Shown here piece after piece: positions 32,947 to 48,928 of a DNA stretch of 54,243 nucleotides. Numbering within the stretch: position 1 is the stretch's first letter; every line of letters begins with the position of its first letter. Location of the stretch: the NCBI GenBank assembly GCA_902386135.1, contig CABMIB010000107.1, positions 1 to 54,243 on the forward strand, given 5' to 3'. The notes beneath the pieces were generated by a model. It was not told where the DNA came from. It worked only from the letters and a program-made list of their open reading frames with translations, and made no database searches. The translations under genes were made by a program, and so were the position numbers. The stretch comes from an uncultured archaeon. Its GTDB lineage: Archaea > Halobacteriota > Methanosarcinia > Methanosarcinales > Methanoperedenaceae.

Positions 32947-33369
32947 TTATCTTTCCGCTTTTGCAATCTCATTGAAGATATTTCCCATACATGTTTTGCA
33001 AGTCCTTGCATGTTCCACGATATCGGCTGCGGATATTATTCCCACTGTTTTTTCATCCTCCACTACAGGGATTCTTCTATATCCCATCTCACCCATGATC
33101 TTTGTAACATCCTCCATCTCCATATCAGGGCTGGCTGTAACAGGACTCTCTGTCATGAATTCGCTCACCCGGGTTTTGGAGGGGTCCTTTCCTGCTGCTA
33201 CTACCTTTGTAGCTATCTGCCTGTCAGTAACTATGCCCTTCAGGCGTCCGTTCTCCTCGACAAGTACAGTCCCTATATTCTCCTTTCTCATCTTTTCAGC
33301 AACTTCTTTTGCCGTCGCGGAAGCCTTAACCGTGACCGGGTCTTTAGTCATTTTCTCACTAACTTTCAT
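32947..33369 (-). CDS. Tandem CBS-domain protein with C-terminal CxxC
   Basis: This 140-aa protein has two CBS motifs, about residues 7-58 (MTKDPVTVKASATAKEV ... LKGIVTDRQI) and 70-122 (MTESPVTASPDMEMEDV ... VGIISAADIV). Such a Bateman module normally binds adenine nucleotides. The tail CKTCMGNIFNE adds a CxxC pair that could bind a metal or respond to redox state. No effector domain is fused, so it would act on a partner protein. The gap 32688-32946 upstream of carB holds no gene. Confidence 0.82.
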   Translation of the reverse strand: MKVSEKMTKDPVTVKASATAKEVAEKMRKENIGTVLVEENGRLKGIVTDRQIATKVVAAGKDPSKTRVSEFMTESPVTASPDMEMEDVTKIMGEMGYRRIPVVEDEKTVGIISAADIVEHARTCKTCMGNIFNEIAKAER

Positions 33370-43060: not shown

Positions 43061-43534
43061 TCACCTTTTCGACATAAGGCATATCTCTTCGGAATCGCTG
43101 CTATATCCAATCAGTCCGGCATGCCTTGTCCAGTTGATTATTATCCTGAAATAACTCTCGGTATCGGAGGAGGGTATCCTTCTCTGGATGAATTTAAGAG
43201 CATCCTCTTTGCTCATCCTGTGCTCATCCGATTGCATGAGTTCATTCCTGAGCTCTTTTATTATCTCCACGCCTGCAACTTTATTCCTTATTATCTTCTT
43301 TCTCTCCTGTATGCTCGCATTAAGCAGTTTCCGCGCATCTTCTGTCAGTTCGATATTGCCGTCGGTAGTGATGACAAACCCGAGCAGCTCCGCACCCTCT
43401 ATCGAGGGAAGGATCTCATCAAGCTCAAGATCGAAATCAGCAGCCAGGCGGGCGGCATCCTCCACTCCTCCTGCGTCATTGATTGCTTCAAGAAGCCCTA
43501 TTATCTCGCTGATTGTTGTCTTTGGAAAAATCAT
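43061..43534 (-). CDS. AAA-associated C-terminal-type protein of an ABC transporter
   Basis: This 157-aa protein looks like the PF09821-type domain often fused to or encoded next to NitT/TauT-type ABC ATPases. It has TISEIIGLLEAINDAGGVED, AADFDLELDEILPSIEGAEL, and a C-terminal helical part with INWTRHAGLIGYS. Its start is 6 nt after the stop of the ATPase gene. Here it is a separate gene rather than a fusion. It may regulate the transporter; the mechanism is unknown. Confidence 0.8.
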   Translation of the reverse strand: MIFPKTTISEIIGLLEAINDAGGVEDAARLAADFDLELDEILPSIEGAELLGFVITTDGNIELTEDARKLLNASIQERKKIIRNKVAGVEIIKELRNELMQSDEHRMSKEDALKFIQRRIPSSDTESYFRIIINWTRHAGLIGYSSDSEEICLMSKR

Positions 43535-43540
43535 GTTTTA

Positions 43541-44287
43541 CTATACTATTAGTGAATAGACTTTATCAACCCATCGATAGAACTCAGGGTCTTTCCTGTT
43601 GCGAGGTCTTTCCAGTTCAACCCTCAGATCCGCCACGATTTTTCCGGGGCGTGGTGAGAGGACGATTATGCGGTTAGCCATGTACACGGCCTCTTCTACG
43701 TTATGGGTTACCATGATTACCGCATCAGGCGGCATGTTTTTATCAGCCCATAGCATCAGCAGTTCATCTTTTAAGTTCTGGGCTGTCAGTGCATCAAGGG
43801 ATGAGAACGGCTCGTCCATGCATAACAGCACAGGTTCCACAGCAAGGGCGCGTGCGAACCCGACCCTTTGCTTCATCCCGCCTGAAAGTTCGCGTGGATA
43901 TACCCTTTCAAACCCGTCAAGTCCGACAGCCTTGATATATTTACACGCCATTCCTTCTCTTTCTTTTTCATGCAGAACCTTAGATTCAAGCACAAGTTCT
44001 ATATTTTCCCTGACCGTAAGCCACGGGAAAAGCGCGAAATTCTGGAAGACCATGGCAACTTTCGGGTTATCGGGCGCTATTACTTTGCCTTTAAAAAGGA
44101 CTTCCCCTGAAGCAGGTTTCTCAAGTCCGATGATTATCCGCAGGAGAGTGCTTTTTCCACATCCCGATGGGCCCACGATGCAGATAAAATCGTTGTCTTC
44201 TACAGTGAAATTAATATTTTCAAGAACTGGTATCCTGGTACCATCTGTTTCATAGGTTTTCGATACATTTCTTATCTCTACGAGCAT
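43541..44287 (-). CDS. ABC transporter ATPase (NitT/TauT type)
   Basis: This 248-aa nucleotide-binding subunit has Walker A GPSGCGKSTLL, Q-loop VFQNFALFPW, signature LSGGMKQRV, Walker B LLCMDEPFSSLD and switch MVTHNVEEA. The sequence is typical of importers for nitrate, sulfonates or similar anions. Its permease is probably the fused protein at 47291-48928, separated from it by the 3-kb Nramp/MgtE-like insert. No solute-binding protein is in the window, so the substrate is unknown. Confidence 0.9.
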   Translation of the reverse strand: MLVEIRNVSKTYETDGTRIPVLENINFTVEDNDFICIVGPSGCGKSTLLRIIIGLEKPASGEVLFKGKVIAPDNPKVAMVFQNFALFPWLTVRENIELVLESKVLHEKEREGMACKYIKAVGLDGFERVYPRELSGGMKQRVGFARALAVEPVLLCMDEPFSSLDALTAQNLKDELLMLWADKNMPPDAVIMVTHNVEEAVYMANRIIVLSPRPGKIVADLRVELERPRNRKDPEFYRWVDKVYSLIV

Positions 44288-44317: not shown

Positions 44318-45598
44318 CTATTCCAGGAAGTGATGTGTTAGATTCATTACGTCCCGATAAAGAACTACTCCATCTATTTTATTGTTCTCATTAGTTACTG
44401 GAATTGCACGGAAGCTGTATCTTGCAAACATGGTTGATGCTTCCTTTAAGGTACTTTCCGGCTTTAAGCTTATTATGTTTTTAGTCATAATATCTTTCAG
44501 CATTGCCGTGTCATTTGCCAGTAAAAGCTCTTTTATATCAATTACGCCCAGCAGCTCGTCCCGGCTGTCAACTACATAAAGATACATTACTACATCTTTG
44601 CCTTTGGCAATCCGCTGATACTCTCCTCGAGCCTGCTCCACTGTTATGTCGGGTTCAAATTTTAAGAAATTCAGCGTGGCGAAATTAAGAATTTTTTCCT
44701 CCTGTTTTTCCAGGATAGACTGGATTTTTCCTGCCTTTTCTTCATTCAGCAATTTTAAAATAATGTTCGCTTCCGCTGATGGCAGGGCTGCCAGGACATC
44801 CGCCGCCTGACCCGGGGTCATCTCATCGATCAGCAGGGCGGCTTTTTCTTTCTTTAACGAAGAAACTAGATCTCTTTGCACGCTGGGGTCGATCTCTTCT
44901 AAGACATCGGAAGCGTGCTCGGTATCAAGTTTATCAAATATCGTGACCCGCTGCTCTGGGTCTAATTCCTCCAGGATATCAGCCAGGTCCACAGGGTGGA
45001 TTTCAGACAGCTTCTCTTTCAGGATTTTTAACTTCACGTTTCCTTTAAAACTGCTGATCTTTGTGGGCAACGGCTGGATATATGCCCAGGAGATCGTTTC
45101 ATCTTTGATCTTATCAGCCAGTTTATAGATAAGGTTAGCAAAGCCTGTCAAACCCATCCTTCTAAGAAGTCCGTATCTGCTTAAATCCACATCACTGACA
45201 TATAATTTATTATTTTTTATGACCAGTTTCACATCATAGACCACTTCCACTTCCCTGTCTTCTATATCAAGAACTTTTTTATCCAGAATATAGTCTTTCA
45301 GCAGCACTGCCTCTTCACCGGGAGATCCTTCGTACTTCTCTAGGTCTTCAATATCGATGGCGACTTCCTTGACTGTCATCGACCTGATATTTTCCCAGGG
45401 AATAAGCAGGGATGGATTACCAAAAGAACGCGTGACGTAGAAATGCGTTACTACGGGTACTTTGCCATTTTCCTTGATAAGAATATCTGAAAGCTTTCCG
45501 ATTTTTTTACCGCGAAGAATAATCTTTGCCCCGATGATTTCACTTAAGAAATAGAAAGGCTTGAATTGGTTTGTATTTTGGGATATGTTCTCGTTCAT
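44318..45598 (-). CDS. MgtE-like cytoplasmic regulator: PRC barrels + MgtE_N + CBS, no TM
   Basis: This 426-aa soluble protein has two PRC-barrel-like segments (about 10-80 and 95-160; GKKIGKLSDILIK, REVEVVYDVKLV). An MgtE N-like superhelical domain follows (about 200-300; EIHPVDLADILEELDPEQRV, VLEEIDPSVQRDLVSSL, DEMTPGQAADVLAALP). A CBS pair comes last (about 310-425; VDSRDELLGVIDIKELL, DIMTKNIISLKPESTLKEA). These are the Mg2+-sensing parts of MgtE channels, but the five-TM channel domain is absent. It lies 3 nt after a small TM gene and close to an Nramp-like permease. Acting as the Mg2+ gate of that permease is an inference. Confidence 0.85.
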   Translation of the reverse strand: MNENISQNTNQFKPFYFLSEIIGAKIILRGKKIGKLSDILIKENGKVPVVTHFYVTRSFGNPSLLIPWENIRSMTVKEVAIDIEDLEKYEGSPGEEAVLLKDYILDKKVLDIEDREVEVVYDVKLVIKNNKLYVSDVDLSRYGLLRRMGLTGFANLIYKLADKIKDETISWAYIQPLPTKISSFKGNVKLKILKEKLSEIHPVDLADILEELDPEQRVTIFDKLDTEHASDVLEEIDPSVQRDLVSSLKKEKAALLIDEMTPGQAADVLAALPSAEANIILKLLNEEKAGKIQSILEKQEEKILNFATLNFLKFEPDITVEQARGEYQRIAKGKDVVMYLYVVDSRDELLGVIDIKELLLANDTAMLKDIMTKNIISLKPESTLKEASTMFARYSFRAIPVTNENNKIDGVVLYRDVMNLTHHFLE

Positions 45599-45601
45599 GA
45601 T

Positions 45602-45784
45602 TCATCCCACCATTTTTGATGTTATTAGAAATTTGTAAACCAATATCAACACCAGGATTATAAGATAAAGTCTCAGCATAAAAAGCGCGATTTTGACCGC
45701 TCGTGTCATTTTTATGCGAGGCGTAGAATATTTACGGTTAATCTCTTTTATTTTGTCAAACCAATTTTTGATAAAGTGTATCAT
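45602..45784 (-). CDS. Small single-TM protein
   Basis: This 60-residue protein has a basic amphipathic N-terminus (WFDKIKEINRKYSTPRIKM) and one membrane helix (about 32-52, ALFMLRLYLIILVLILVYKF). It is encoded between the Nramp-like permease (gap 4 nt) and the MgtE-like regulator (gap 3 nt), so it is almost certainly co-transcribed. Small TM proteins of this kind can be accessory subunits. No family is recognised. Confidence 0.65.
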   Translation of the reverse strand: MIHFIKNWFDKIKEINRKYSTPRIKMTRAVKIALFMLRLYLIILVLILVYKFLITSKMVG

Positions 45785-45788
45785 GATT

Positions 45789-47060
45789 TTACCCTCCGAA
45801 AAGTCCGGAGAAAAGCGCGCTGATACCGTACAATGTAGATAAAATGATAATCGCTATTACAATAGTAGAGTCGATGATATTTTGTAACAGGGTATTTTTG
45901 TATTTTCCCATTATCTCCTCGTTGTTGAGAAGCAATATCAAAAATACCAGTGCGGCGGGTAGCAGGGTTACAGCGATTACCTGTACGAAAAGAGTAATTA
46001 AGACAAGCGGCGCGCCGGGGATCAAGACAACTGCACCGGCAGTGACCAAAGCCAGGAAATAACAGGCATAGAACCATGCAGCTTCCTTGACTTTGTGATT
46101 CAGTGAATGCGCCCAGCCGAATACCTCCCCGAAAGCCCATGAGCCAGCTAAAGATATGCAGACGGCCCCCAAAAATCCGGCATCAAAAAGACCGATAGCT
46201 AAAAAAGTACCGATATATTTATCCTTGCCCATAAGTACCTGTGCTGCCTGGGCAGCGCTTTCTATATTCATTCCTTTCAAAACCGTGCCTGTAACAATAA
46301 TTACAAAAATAGCCACAAATACGGTGAATAAAGAGCCGACAAGGGTATCAAATTTTCCCCAGGGTATATCCTTTTCACGCATACCCTTATCTACCACTGA
46401 ACTCTGCTGGAAAAATAACATCCAGGGAGCGATGGTCGTGCCGATATTAGCCATTAAGAAAAAGAACAGTTCGTTAGTGAACCCGCCGGGGAAATGAGGA
46501 ATAATCCCCTGTCCAATAACCTGCGAGACCGATGGATGGACTAAAAAAGCGGTCGGGATATAAACTAAATTTAACCCGCAGAATATCAAAGTTATTTTTT
46601 CCCATGTCCAGTAGCGCCCCTGCAGGACCATTATTCCCATAATAACCGAAACGCCAATCACAGTAATGTAGGGTGGAACGCCAAATATACCGAGAGCAGC
46701 GGTCATTCCGATGAATTCCGTAACTAAAGTCAGCCAGTTTACTATTGTCAGGTCAATGAAGGAAAACCAGCCCCAGAACGGACCGAAAGCATCAAAAATC
46801 GCCTCGGCATGTCCACGTTTAGTCACGGCACCCAGCCGTACTGTCATTTCCTGTATAAAATACGCTATAGGTCCGAGCAGTACTAAAAACCAGATAAGAC
46901 CATAGCCATATTTGGCACCGGTAGCGGCATAGGTAGTGATGCCCCCGGCATCATTATCTGCCACCATCACAATAATACCAGGTCCGGCGAGCAGCAAATA
47001 TAACAGTATCGCCTTTTTCACCCTGCGATACTCATAATATAAGTGTGATGAAAATTTCAT
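45789..47060 (-). CDS. Nramp-related permease with altered metal site
   Basis: This 423-aa protein has 11 or so TMs of the Nramp/LeuT fold (LLAGPGIIVMVADNDAGGI; YFIQEMTVRLGAVTKRG). In classical Nramp the TM1 motif is DPGN and TM6 has MPH. Here the matching positions read DAGG (Asn to Gly) and APW (IAPWMLFFQQS; Met to Ala, His to Trp). The soft ligand Met that selects Mn2+/Fe2+ is therefore lost, as in Nramp-related magnesium transporters (NRMTs). With a membrane-free MgtE-like regulator downstream, Mg2+ import is my preferred guess; other hard cations are possible. Confidence 0.85.
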   Translation of the reverse strand: MKFSSHLYYEYRRVKKAILLYLLLAGPGIIVMVADNDAGGITTYAATGAKYGYGLIWFLVLLGPIAYFIQEMTVRLGAVTKRGHAEAIFDAFGPFWGWFSFIDLTIVNWLTLVTEFIGMTAALGIFGVPPYITVIGVSVIMGIMVLQGRYWTWEKITLIFCGLNLVYIPTAFLVHPSVSQVIGQGIIPHFPGGFTNELFFFLMANIGTTIAPWMLFFQQSSVVDKGMREKDIPWGKFDTLVGSLFTVFVAIFVIIVTGTVLKGMNIESAAQAAQVLMGKDKYIGTFLAIGLFDAGFLGAVCISLAGSWAFGEVFGWAHSLNHKVKEAAWFYACYFLALVTAGAVVLIPGAPLVLITLFVQVIAVTLLPAALVFLILLLNNEEIMGKYKNTLLQNIIDSTIVIAIIILSTLYGISALFSGLFGG

Positions 47061-47290
47061 ACCGGCTGGGATTCCTTATAACTCACGATTCCTCTTAATC
47101 CGATATCGCAAGACCAAGCATAATCAGCAAAAAGCCAATTAAGATTTTAATTCTGGAATCTGCCAAAATGTACCGCCTCAGTGTGATAATATATTTTAAC
47201 TTGCGCATTCTAATTCCTTCATCGTACCCAACTTATATCAAGCATGCCCTTTTTATGTTTTCCATCCCTTAAAATTTTTCTATCAGGAAA

Positions 47291-48928
47291 TTAATCGAAT
47301 TTATATTTAACCAGTGCCTTCCTGTACGCGGGCTGCCATATAAGTTTATTCAGGAATACGATGGTTAAAGACATACTGAGTACAGATAATAAGACCATGC
47401 TTGAATTCGGGGATTCGAACGTGGCTTTGTCTAGTAGATATCCTATCCCGAATAGATGATATTCTTGTCCCTTATAGGTAATATATTCAGCGACGATTAA
47501 CGTGTTCCAGCCTCCGCCCCATGCGGTTATGCTTCCTGTTATAAATGAAGGGAACATCGCAGGCAAAAGAACCTTTTTCCAGTAGAGCTTCCCTTTGACC
47601 CCAAAGGATGTGGCGGCATTATCTATATCTTTCGGGATTGACCTTACACCTGCGATCAGGTTAAAAAGCAGGTACCACTGCATTCCAAGCAATATGAGAA
47701 TAACAGCCGCAATATCCAGGCTCCCGTATTTTATGAAAATAACGACCATCGCCGGGAAGAGCGCGATCGCTGGTATGGAAGCCGCAACTTCCATCAAAGG
47801 CATCAGGTAGGATGAGGCTTTTTTGTTCTTCACTATATAAACGGCGGCAGGAACAGTCCATAAGGTACAGATTATATATGCAGCGCTTAACCGCAAGAAC
47901 GAGTACACTATTGCCAGCGGAATAGAATATGCATCGGTAGGCAGGTTCAGCAGCAATTTAACTATGGAGATAACAAAGTCATACATGATATAGGCAAGAC
48001 CCAGGAACAAAATAAGGAGACCTGAAAATTTCAGTGCACTTTTAATGATTTTATGTCCGTGGAACAGGATGTACAATGATACGGTTATATTTGAAAAAAC
48101 ATCGAAGATAAACCTGAATACCTGTTTAATGGCCTTTGTCTTAAGGATGAACTCTCCCGGCCTTTTCTCGCCTGCATACTCATAATTATATTTGTCAGCC
48201 CACGACTGCATCGGTCTCCAGATAAACAGCTCAAGTAAAAGTATGATAATTATTAAAACGGATAATCCTATAAGCATGAGGGCTATTTTCCCTGAATATG
48301 TCGTGTCTATCAGAAAGCTCCCAAGCCCGGGCAGTTTATACGTCCCCGACCCTGCCGATATGATTTCGGACGCGACTAAAAAAAACCATCCTGCAGACCA
48401 TGAAACAATGCTGTTGTAAACCAGTTTCGGGACGCATGCAGGAAGCGTGAGGCTCTCAAGGCGCTGCCATCCTCGAACCACAAAACTATCCGCAGCTTCT
48501 ATGAGTTCCTTCGGGATGGTGGTAAGGGATTCGTAAACCCCGAAAGCCATGTTCCATGCCATGCTTGTGAAAATCAGGAAAACTGCCGCAACTTCCACTC
48601 CCGGCCTGCCGGGGATGATCCCGATGAAAAACAGGACAGCAGCAGGGAAAAATCCCAGTATTGGCACGGACTGGAGGATATCAAGGACAGGAAGCATGAC
48701 CTTTCTTGCTCTGGTATTTGTCGCGGCGACATAGCCGTACGACAGTGCGAAACAGAGTGCAAAAAGATAAGCGGCACTCATCCGCAGTAAAGAGGATGCG
48801 GCATAGTATGGAAGTGATACAAGCTCCGGGAAATCTATATAATCAAAAAAATAGAAAGCTGATATGACCGATATCAAAAAGAGTATGATCGCAAGGATAA
48901 AGTGTCCCTTTTTCATTGTTAGCTGCAT
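47291..48928 (-). CDS. ABC transporter permease, two fused BPD domains
   Basis: This 545-aa protein holds two binding-protein-dependent transport permease domains in one chain, about residues 10-250 and 275-540. Each has an EAA-like loop: ELIEAADSFVVRGWQRLESL in the first and DIDNAATSFGVKGKLYWKKV in the second. About 12 TMs are predicted. The fused form acts as its own dimer and would pair with the ATPase at 43541-44287. The family is NitT/TauT-like; the substrate is unknown. Its ATG is at 48928, with an in-frame ATG at 48916 just downstream. Confidence 0.85.
   Translation of the reverse strand: MQLTMKKGHFILAIILFLISVISAFYFFDYIDFPELVSLPYYAASSLLRMSAAYLFALCFALSYGYVAATNTRARKVMLPVLDILQSVPILGFFPAAVLFFIGIIPGRPGVEVAAVFLIFTSMAWNMAFGVYESLTTIPKELIEAADSFVVRGWQRLESLTLPACVPKLVYNSIVSWSAGWFFLVASEIISAGSGTYKLPGLGSFLIDTTYSGKIALMLIGLSVLIIIILLLELFIWRPMQSWADKYNYEYAGEKRPGEFILKTKAIKQVFRFIFDVFSNITVSLYILFHGHKIIKSALKFSGLLILFLGLAYIMYDFVISIVKLLLNLPTDAYSIPLAIVYSFLRLSAAYIICTLWTVPAAVYIVKNKKASSYLMPLMEVAASIPAIALFPAMVVIFIKYGSLDIAAVILILLGMQWYLLFNLIAGVRSIPKDIDNAATSFGVKGKLYWKKVLLPAMFPSFITGSITAWGGGWNTLIVAEYITYKGQEYHLFGIGYLLDKATFESPNSSMVLLSVLSMSLTIVFLNKLIWQPAYRKALVKYKFD

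Follow-up and report, generated by a model that had tools for sequence, protein, structure and literature searches.

What do three tightly packed genes of an archaeon, encoding an Nramp-like permease, a small membrane protein and a soluble protein built from MgtE domains, do together? They lie in a window (the whole stretch of DNA analysed, 54,243 nucleotides) from an archaeal genome of 3.24 Mb in 120 contigs. A previous sequence-only reading had proposed a transport system for Mg2+ or another hard cation in which an MgtE-type gate controls a different transporter fold. The gene layout it described was borne out (Table 1): the Nramp-fold permease, the small TM ORF and the soluble MgtE-like ORF follow each other on the minus strand, the small ORF lying in the middle, with gaps of 4 bp on the permease side and 3 bp on the MgtE-like side. 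The domain assignment of the soluble protein also stood, as MgtE_N, CBS and PRC domains were recovered, the second PRC-like repeat was backed by hhalign and the predicted fold, and Pfam found no C-terminal MgtE channel domain, the protein stopping after the CBS pair. No fusion of permease and sensor genes was noticed among the ORFs. A 37-aa TM ORF directly upstream of the permease gene (47095-47208, minus strand) was rejected as a part of the cassette because it is not conserved; it may be the remnant tail of a decayed permease gene. Elsewhere in the window, the ORF at 32947-33369 (minus strand) weakly matches the MgtE-like profile (2e-7), probably via CBS domains.

Table 1 Features of the three-gene cassette and of the split operon around it (window coordinates).
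Feature	Position	Strand	Remark
ABC permease (fused double)	47291-48928	-	upstream half of split operon; outside cassette
NRMT permease gene, 423 aa	45789-47060	-	branch-A NRMT (Nramp-related Mg2+ transporter)
TM1 site motif D37-A-G-G40	46941-46952	-	EleNRMT D55, G58 (alignment)
TM6 motif A211-P-W213 in T208-T-I-A-P-W	46422-46430	-	EleNRMT T224, A227, W229
Small single-span membrane protein gene, 60 aa	45602-45784	-	no family; TM-helix motif LRxY(L/I)
PRC/MgtE_N/CBS protein gene, 426 aa	44318-45598	-	soluble, MgtE-derived
PRC barrel 1, residues 15-73	45380-45556	-	Pfam PF05239, 23.7 bits vs cut-off 21.2, E 4.9e-5
Second PRC-like repeat, residues ~94-178	45065-45319	-	hhalign vs PRC barrel 1, probability 80%, E 1.3e-5; model strands
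MgtE_N domain, residues 200-300	44699-45001	-	Pfam 1.3e-24; fold match 2oux/2zy9
CBS pair, residues ~303-420	44339-44692	-	Pfam 1.6e-17; no plug helix after
ABC ATPase	43541-44287	-	downstream half of split operon; outside cassette
AAA_assoc_C protein	43061-43534	-	downstream half of split operon; outside cassette

The permease matches the Pfam Nramp family (1.2e-75), and its best match by sequence in the PDB is EleNRMT (7qia, 9e-65). The best PDB fold for its AlphaFold model (pLDDT 94) is again EleNRMT (TM 0.84/0.88). The canonical Nramp/MntH motifs DPGN and MPH are absent from the permease, which reads DAGG and APW in their place. The sequence-only reading had this observation right but took it for a loss of the metal motifs; it is instead the signature of a known group, because DxxG in TM1 with TxxA/T in TM6 has been published as defining the NRMTs, in which the site is widened for hydrated Mg2+ and the proton-coupling residues are replaced (PMC8806188). 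Both halves of the signature are present in the window (D37-A-G-G40 and T208-T-I-A211). In the alignment, D55, G58, T224, A227, W229, E133 and Q379 of EleNRMT correspond to D37, G40, T208, A211, W213, E115 and Q360 of the window permease, so that in both the TM6b His has become Trp and the TM3 Glu is kept. As judged from sequence and modelled fold, the permease is thus a member of the NRMTs, closest to EleNRMT and with identical site residues.

To place it among its relatives we built a tree of 153 permeases, drawing on genomes of the window's class and on samples centred on Bacillota and Acidobacteriota, by a quick method and with long branches present. In this tree the NRMTs stand apart from the MntH-like rows and form two branches, A (97 rows including the window, local support 100) and B (47 rows). 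Branch B holds EleNRMT and those of clostridia, Acidobacteriota and a second set in Methanothrix, with the MgtE-like gene preceding the NRMT gene. Methanothrix-class genomes (L043-L050, G043) carry such branch-B pairs, near which an Lrp-type regulator recurs; G043 has both branches. Within branch A we distinguished three gene orders: NRMT-small-MgtE-like (subgroup I), NRMT-MgtE-like-small, the small protein being mostly 36-37 aa long (subgroup II), and NRMT-small without an MgtE-like gene (subgroup III, mostly Bacillota and often behind an M-box). The site residues are conserved across the branch (D37 100%, G40 97%, T208 95%, W213 100%).

The sequence-only reading had called for a co-occurrence analysis, and this analysis supports it: in a scan of 80 loci of named genomes the trio is conserved, with rearranged order, in archaea and in about 20 phyla as named in NCBI titles, a count drawn mostly from environmental MAGs in which single assignments may be wrong. 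Nramp homologues lacking the MgtE-like partner, which if general would refute the pairing according to that reading, do exist in part: one branch-A subgroup, III, consists of them. The set does occur in only one genome of its genus in the class sample, as might be expected if the three genes were chance neighbours with no joint function. That explanation is already contradicted by the co-occurrence data and we give it practically no weight. Besides the wide distribution in rearranged order, the three genes show correlated divergence across 62 cassettes (rho 0.82 for NRMT and MgtE-like, 0.51 for NRMT and small; 0/999 permutations), and a mechanical control that counted any small TM ORF beside the pair found one at 66 of 74 branch-A loci against 2 of 31 branch-B loci. 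The co-location of the three genes is far beyond chance.

We then compared the soluble partner with MgtE itself. Its model (pLDDT 88, pTM 0.50, with uncertain inter-domain placement) matches the cytosolic structures of MgtE. The Mg2+ sites mutagenised in Thermus MgtE (PMC5882242) were mapped onto 71 branch-A and 35 branch-B proteins. The Mg6/Mg7 equivalents are mostly acidic in branch A (E59 in 63/71, D95 in 61/71; D231 and D267 in the window). The Mg4/Mg5 residues of MgtE that bridge to the plug helix (D91, D226, D247 and D250, contacting it as the pairs D91/D247 and D226/D250) behave differently: the D91 equivalent is acidic in none of the 71 branch-A proteins versus 32 of 35 in branch B, and that of D250 in 2/71 versus 26/35. 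In the window the D226 equivalent is Ser; D247 is kept and may be a structural residue of the CBS domain. As branch-A proteins have lost the plug helix as well as the D91 and D250 equivalents, a plug-type gate is excluded for them, and the MgtE-type gate of the sequence-only reading has to be corrected. A Mg2+-responsive interface between N domain and CBS pair is possible. CBS pairs often bind adenosine ligands. It is conceivable, although we rather doubt it, that the protein serves as a Mg2+ buffer or chaperone, or senses a nucleotide as CBS ligand, and is no feedback sensor: it has lost the plug helix together with two of the residues that bridge to it, MgtE has been solved with ATP (5x9g) and Shin et al. 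raised a chaperone role (PMC4072509), but the E59 and D95 equivalents, acidic residues at the N-domain/CBS interface, are kept in most branch-A proteins.

The small gene was found beside 88 of the 97 branch-A rows, in all three gene orders and also in cassettes that have no MgtE-like gene, and beside none of the 47 branch-B rows. Among the nine branch-A rows without it, five come from truncated loci (for two of which the whole-genome scan did find the gene), two represent a single gene, and the true exceptions amount to three genes, all divergent branch-A NRMT paralogues (L131:11212-12435, L133:3983-5320 and L184:1465-2736). The L133 paralogue is followed in tandem by an M-box-NRMT-small unit. 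When whole genomes were searched with the small-protein profile, matches appeared in 7 of 150 genomes of the window's class and in 13 of 119 genomes of the Acidobacteriota-centred sample, every one of them beside a branch-A NRMT. A small gene in branch B was considered and rejected: the profile finds none, and the TM ORFs at 2 of 31 loci are unrelated and at chance level. The median dN/dS is 0.19 for the small gene (20 pairs), 0.07 for the NRMT gene and 0.10 for the MgtE-like gene. Conservation across phyla and this dN/dS mark the small ORF as a real gene.

Searches of Pfam, NCBIfam and the PDB placed the small protein in no family. What its members have in common is a TM helix carrying LRxY(L/I) near its beginning, with the Tyr invariant in 38 diverse members; basic residues ahead of the helix suggest by the positive-inside rule that the N-terminus is inside. 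Subgroup I members carry a conserved cytosolic segment, K..EIN.KY..P, which subgroup II members lack. The small protein is the most constant partner of the branch-A NRMTs, and as a partner of the whole branch it is apparently undescribed. We read it as a putative subunit of the permease, because the gene is retained in every gene order and also in cassettes that lack the sensor; the existence of three orders favours a functional link over inherited synteny. The small protein might instead act on the MgtE-like regulator, anchoring a soluble sensor to the membrane, as could be argued from its position between the two genes in subgroup I, from the cytosolic segment and from branch B, which has no small gene and retains the plug-site residues. 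Since subgroup III has the small gene and no MgtE-like gene, and subgroup II has the regulator with a small protein devoid of the segment, we consider an anchor quite improbable.

Which ion does the permease carry? Each of the three branch-A subgroups includes cassettes preceded by an M-box Mg2+ riboswitch: L139 (same cassette as L073) in subgroup I, L146 (same as L102) in subgroup II, and L150 (same cassette as L133), L131, L132, L135 and L174 in subgroup III. One M-box carrier is Alicyclobacillus sendaiensis. There is none in the window or in most of the branch-A loci scanned, and no Mn2+ riboswitch was found in the scanned loci. Because of these M-boxes before its relatives and of the NRMT site, Mg2+ is the most likely substrate. 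Alternatively, the permease could import Mn2+, or divalent cations broadly, with the MgtE-like protein sensing Mn2+, as suggested for Acidobacterium capsulatum. The NRMT of that species, encoded beside an MgtE-like gene, acted as a Mn2+ transporter: it rescued a Mn2+ defect, whereas its rescue of a Mg2+ defect was weak, and co-expression of the partner changed nothing (PMC4072509). EleNRMT carries both ions, and the absence of an M-box from the window fits this alternative too. Nevertheless we regard it as rather unlikely, given the M-boxes in the three subgroups and the lack of Mn2+ riboswitches; moreover the A. capsulatum pair, to judge from its gene order with the MgtE-like gene first, looks like branch B. 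The central idea of the sequence-only reading, Mg2+ transport with regulatory pairing, holds as far as an NRMT with an MgtE-derived partner and a likely Mg2+ substrate are concerned, but is largely prior art: Shin et al. (2014, PMC4072509) had already described a homologue of the MgtE cytoplasmic domain encoded next to most nrmT genes and proposed feedback regulation or a chaperone role. Our literature search found no description combining Nramp, MgtE and PRC.

The surroundings of the cassette bear on its arrival. In the 15 congeners with the flanking ABC system, the permease and ATPase genes adjoin each other (~10 bp) in every case in which the examined stretch covers both, and in the window the cassette separates them; the eight further genus members in the class sample lack the cassette. 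The comparison of these sequences indicates that in this archaeon an ABC-transporter operon was interrupted by insertion of the cassette. No substrate-binding gene was seen in the split operon. The correlated divergence of the three genes is consistent with a cassette moving as a unit. Many relatives are more than 70% identical across phyla and domains, which suggests a recent wide horizontal spread among sediment, peat and lake microbes. Cassettes L057-L098 are examples, with >70% identity between archaea and many bacterial phyla. The ABC transporter was rejected as a core partner: it lies near 4 other branch-A loci, but the further loci that span 9 kb or more (21 in branch A, 27 in branch B) do not have it. 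The same ABC family adjoins unrelated branch-A cassettes in L101, L121, L113 and L116. A putative P-type cation ATPase of ~890 aa, by the appearance of its sequence, adjoins four branch-A cassettes from different phyla (L127:2955-5633, L120:8847-11492, L094:7457-10102 and L074:2265-4886) and is possibly a second cation transporter of the same regulon.

In all, we think it fairly probable that the genes form a horizontally spread Mg2+ uptake cassette in which an NRMT is joined by a small membrane subunit and, in most cases, by a feedback sensor derived from MgtE. Transport, binding and regulation, as we infer them, would proceed as follows. The permease, with its LeuT fold, its DxxG-TxxA site for Mg2+ in largely hydrated form and Trp in place of the proton-coupling His, would import Mg2+, probably driven by the membrane potential. 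The small protein, with its predicted inside N-terminus and one TM helix, would bind the permease in the membrane as a constitutive accessory subunit and stabilise or tune it. The MgtE-derived protein would sense cytosolic Mg2+ and/or a nucleotide at the N-domain/CBS interface and restrain the permease when Mg2+ is plentiful. Because MgtE's plug helix is lost, this signal would need a different route to the permease, perhaps through the small protein. Against the importer cassette speak the missing M-box in the window and in most scanned branch-A loci, the Mn2+ result with A. capsulatum and the lack of effect of its partner, the three paralogues without a small gene and the loss of D91 and D250, on which closure of MgtE depends. 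Going further, the branch-A NRMTs might be hetero-oligomers with an obligate microprotein, the first such Nramp-fold transporters, in which its helix replaces MgtE's plug as the gating element of a detached sensor; this is a tentative proposal that we hold possible at best.

The usual view, to our knowledge, is that an Nramp-fold transporter consists of a single polypeptide. A tiny membrane partner that is conserved in archaea and bacteria, and in some of them under Mg2+-riboswitch control, would give the family a further subunit and account for one class of short ORFs that lack annotation. What is new is the split of the NRMTs into two branches, the constant microprotein partner that defines branch A, and a sensor without MgtE's gate; the pairing of NRMT and MgtE domains was known (PMC4072509). 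The natural comparison is between branch B, which keeps the plug residues but has no microprotein, and subgroup III, which has the microprotein but no sensor. It bears on how an MgtE-type sensor controls an unfused transporter, a question dating from 2014.

Compared with the described NRMT/NrmT proteins (Ca_c0685; EleNRMT, 7qia), the window permease has the same fold, the same DxxG-TxxA site and the same Trp in place of the proton-coupling His, both neighbour a homologue of the MgtE cytoplasmic domain, and some members are under M-box control. It differs in being only ~33-38% identical, in belonging to the separate branch A and in its reversed gene order; branch A is also almost always accompanied by the small membrane protein, which goes unmentioned in those parts of the two NRMT papers that were searched. 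With MntH/SLC11 Nramp proteins it shares the Pfam Nramp fold but not DPGN, MPH or the coupling His, and we know of no small subunit in that group. The MgtE-like protein has the N domain, CBS pair and E59/D95 equivalents of the cytosolic part of the MgtE Mg2+ channel (2zy9, 2oux), whereas it is separate and soluble, carries two PRC-like barrels in front, has neither channel nor plug helix and has lost D91 and D250. Finally, the small protein resembles MgtS, which binds and stabilises MgtA, and KdpF, which stabilises the KdpFABC complex (PMC10925321), in its tiny size, its single span and its link to one neighbouring transporter of Mg2+ or K+. Unlike them it has no family-level sequence match, it is operon-linked and near-obligate, and its partner is an Nramp-fold secondary transporter whereas theirs is a P-type ATPase.
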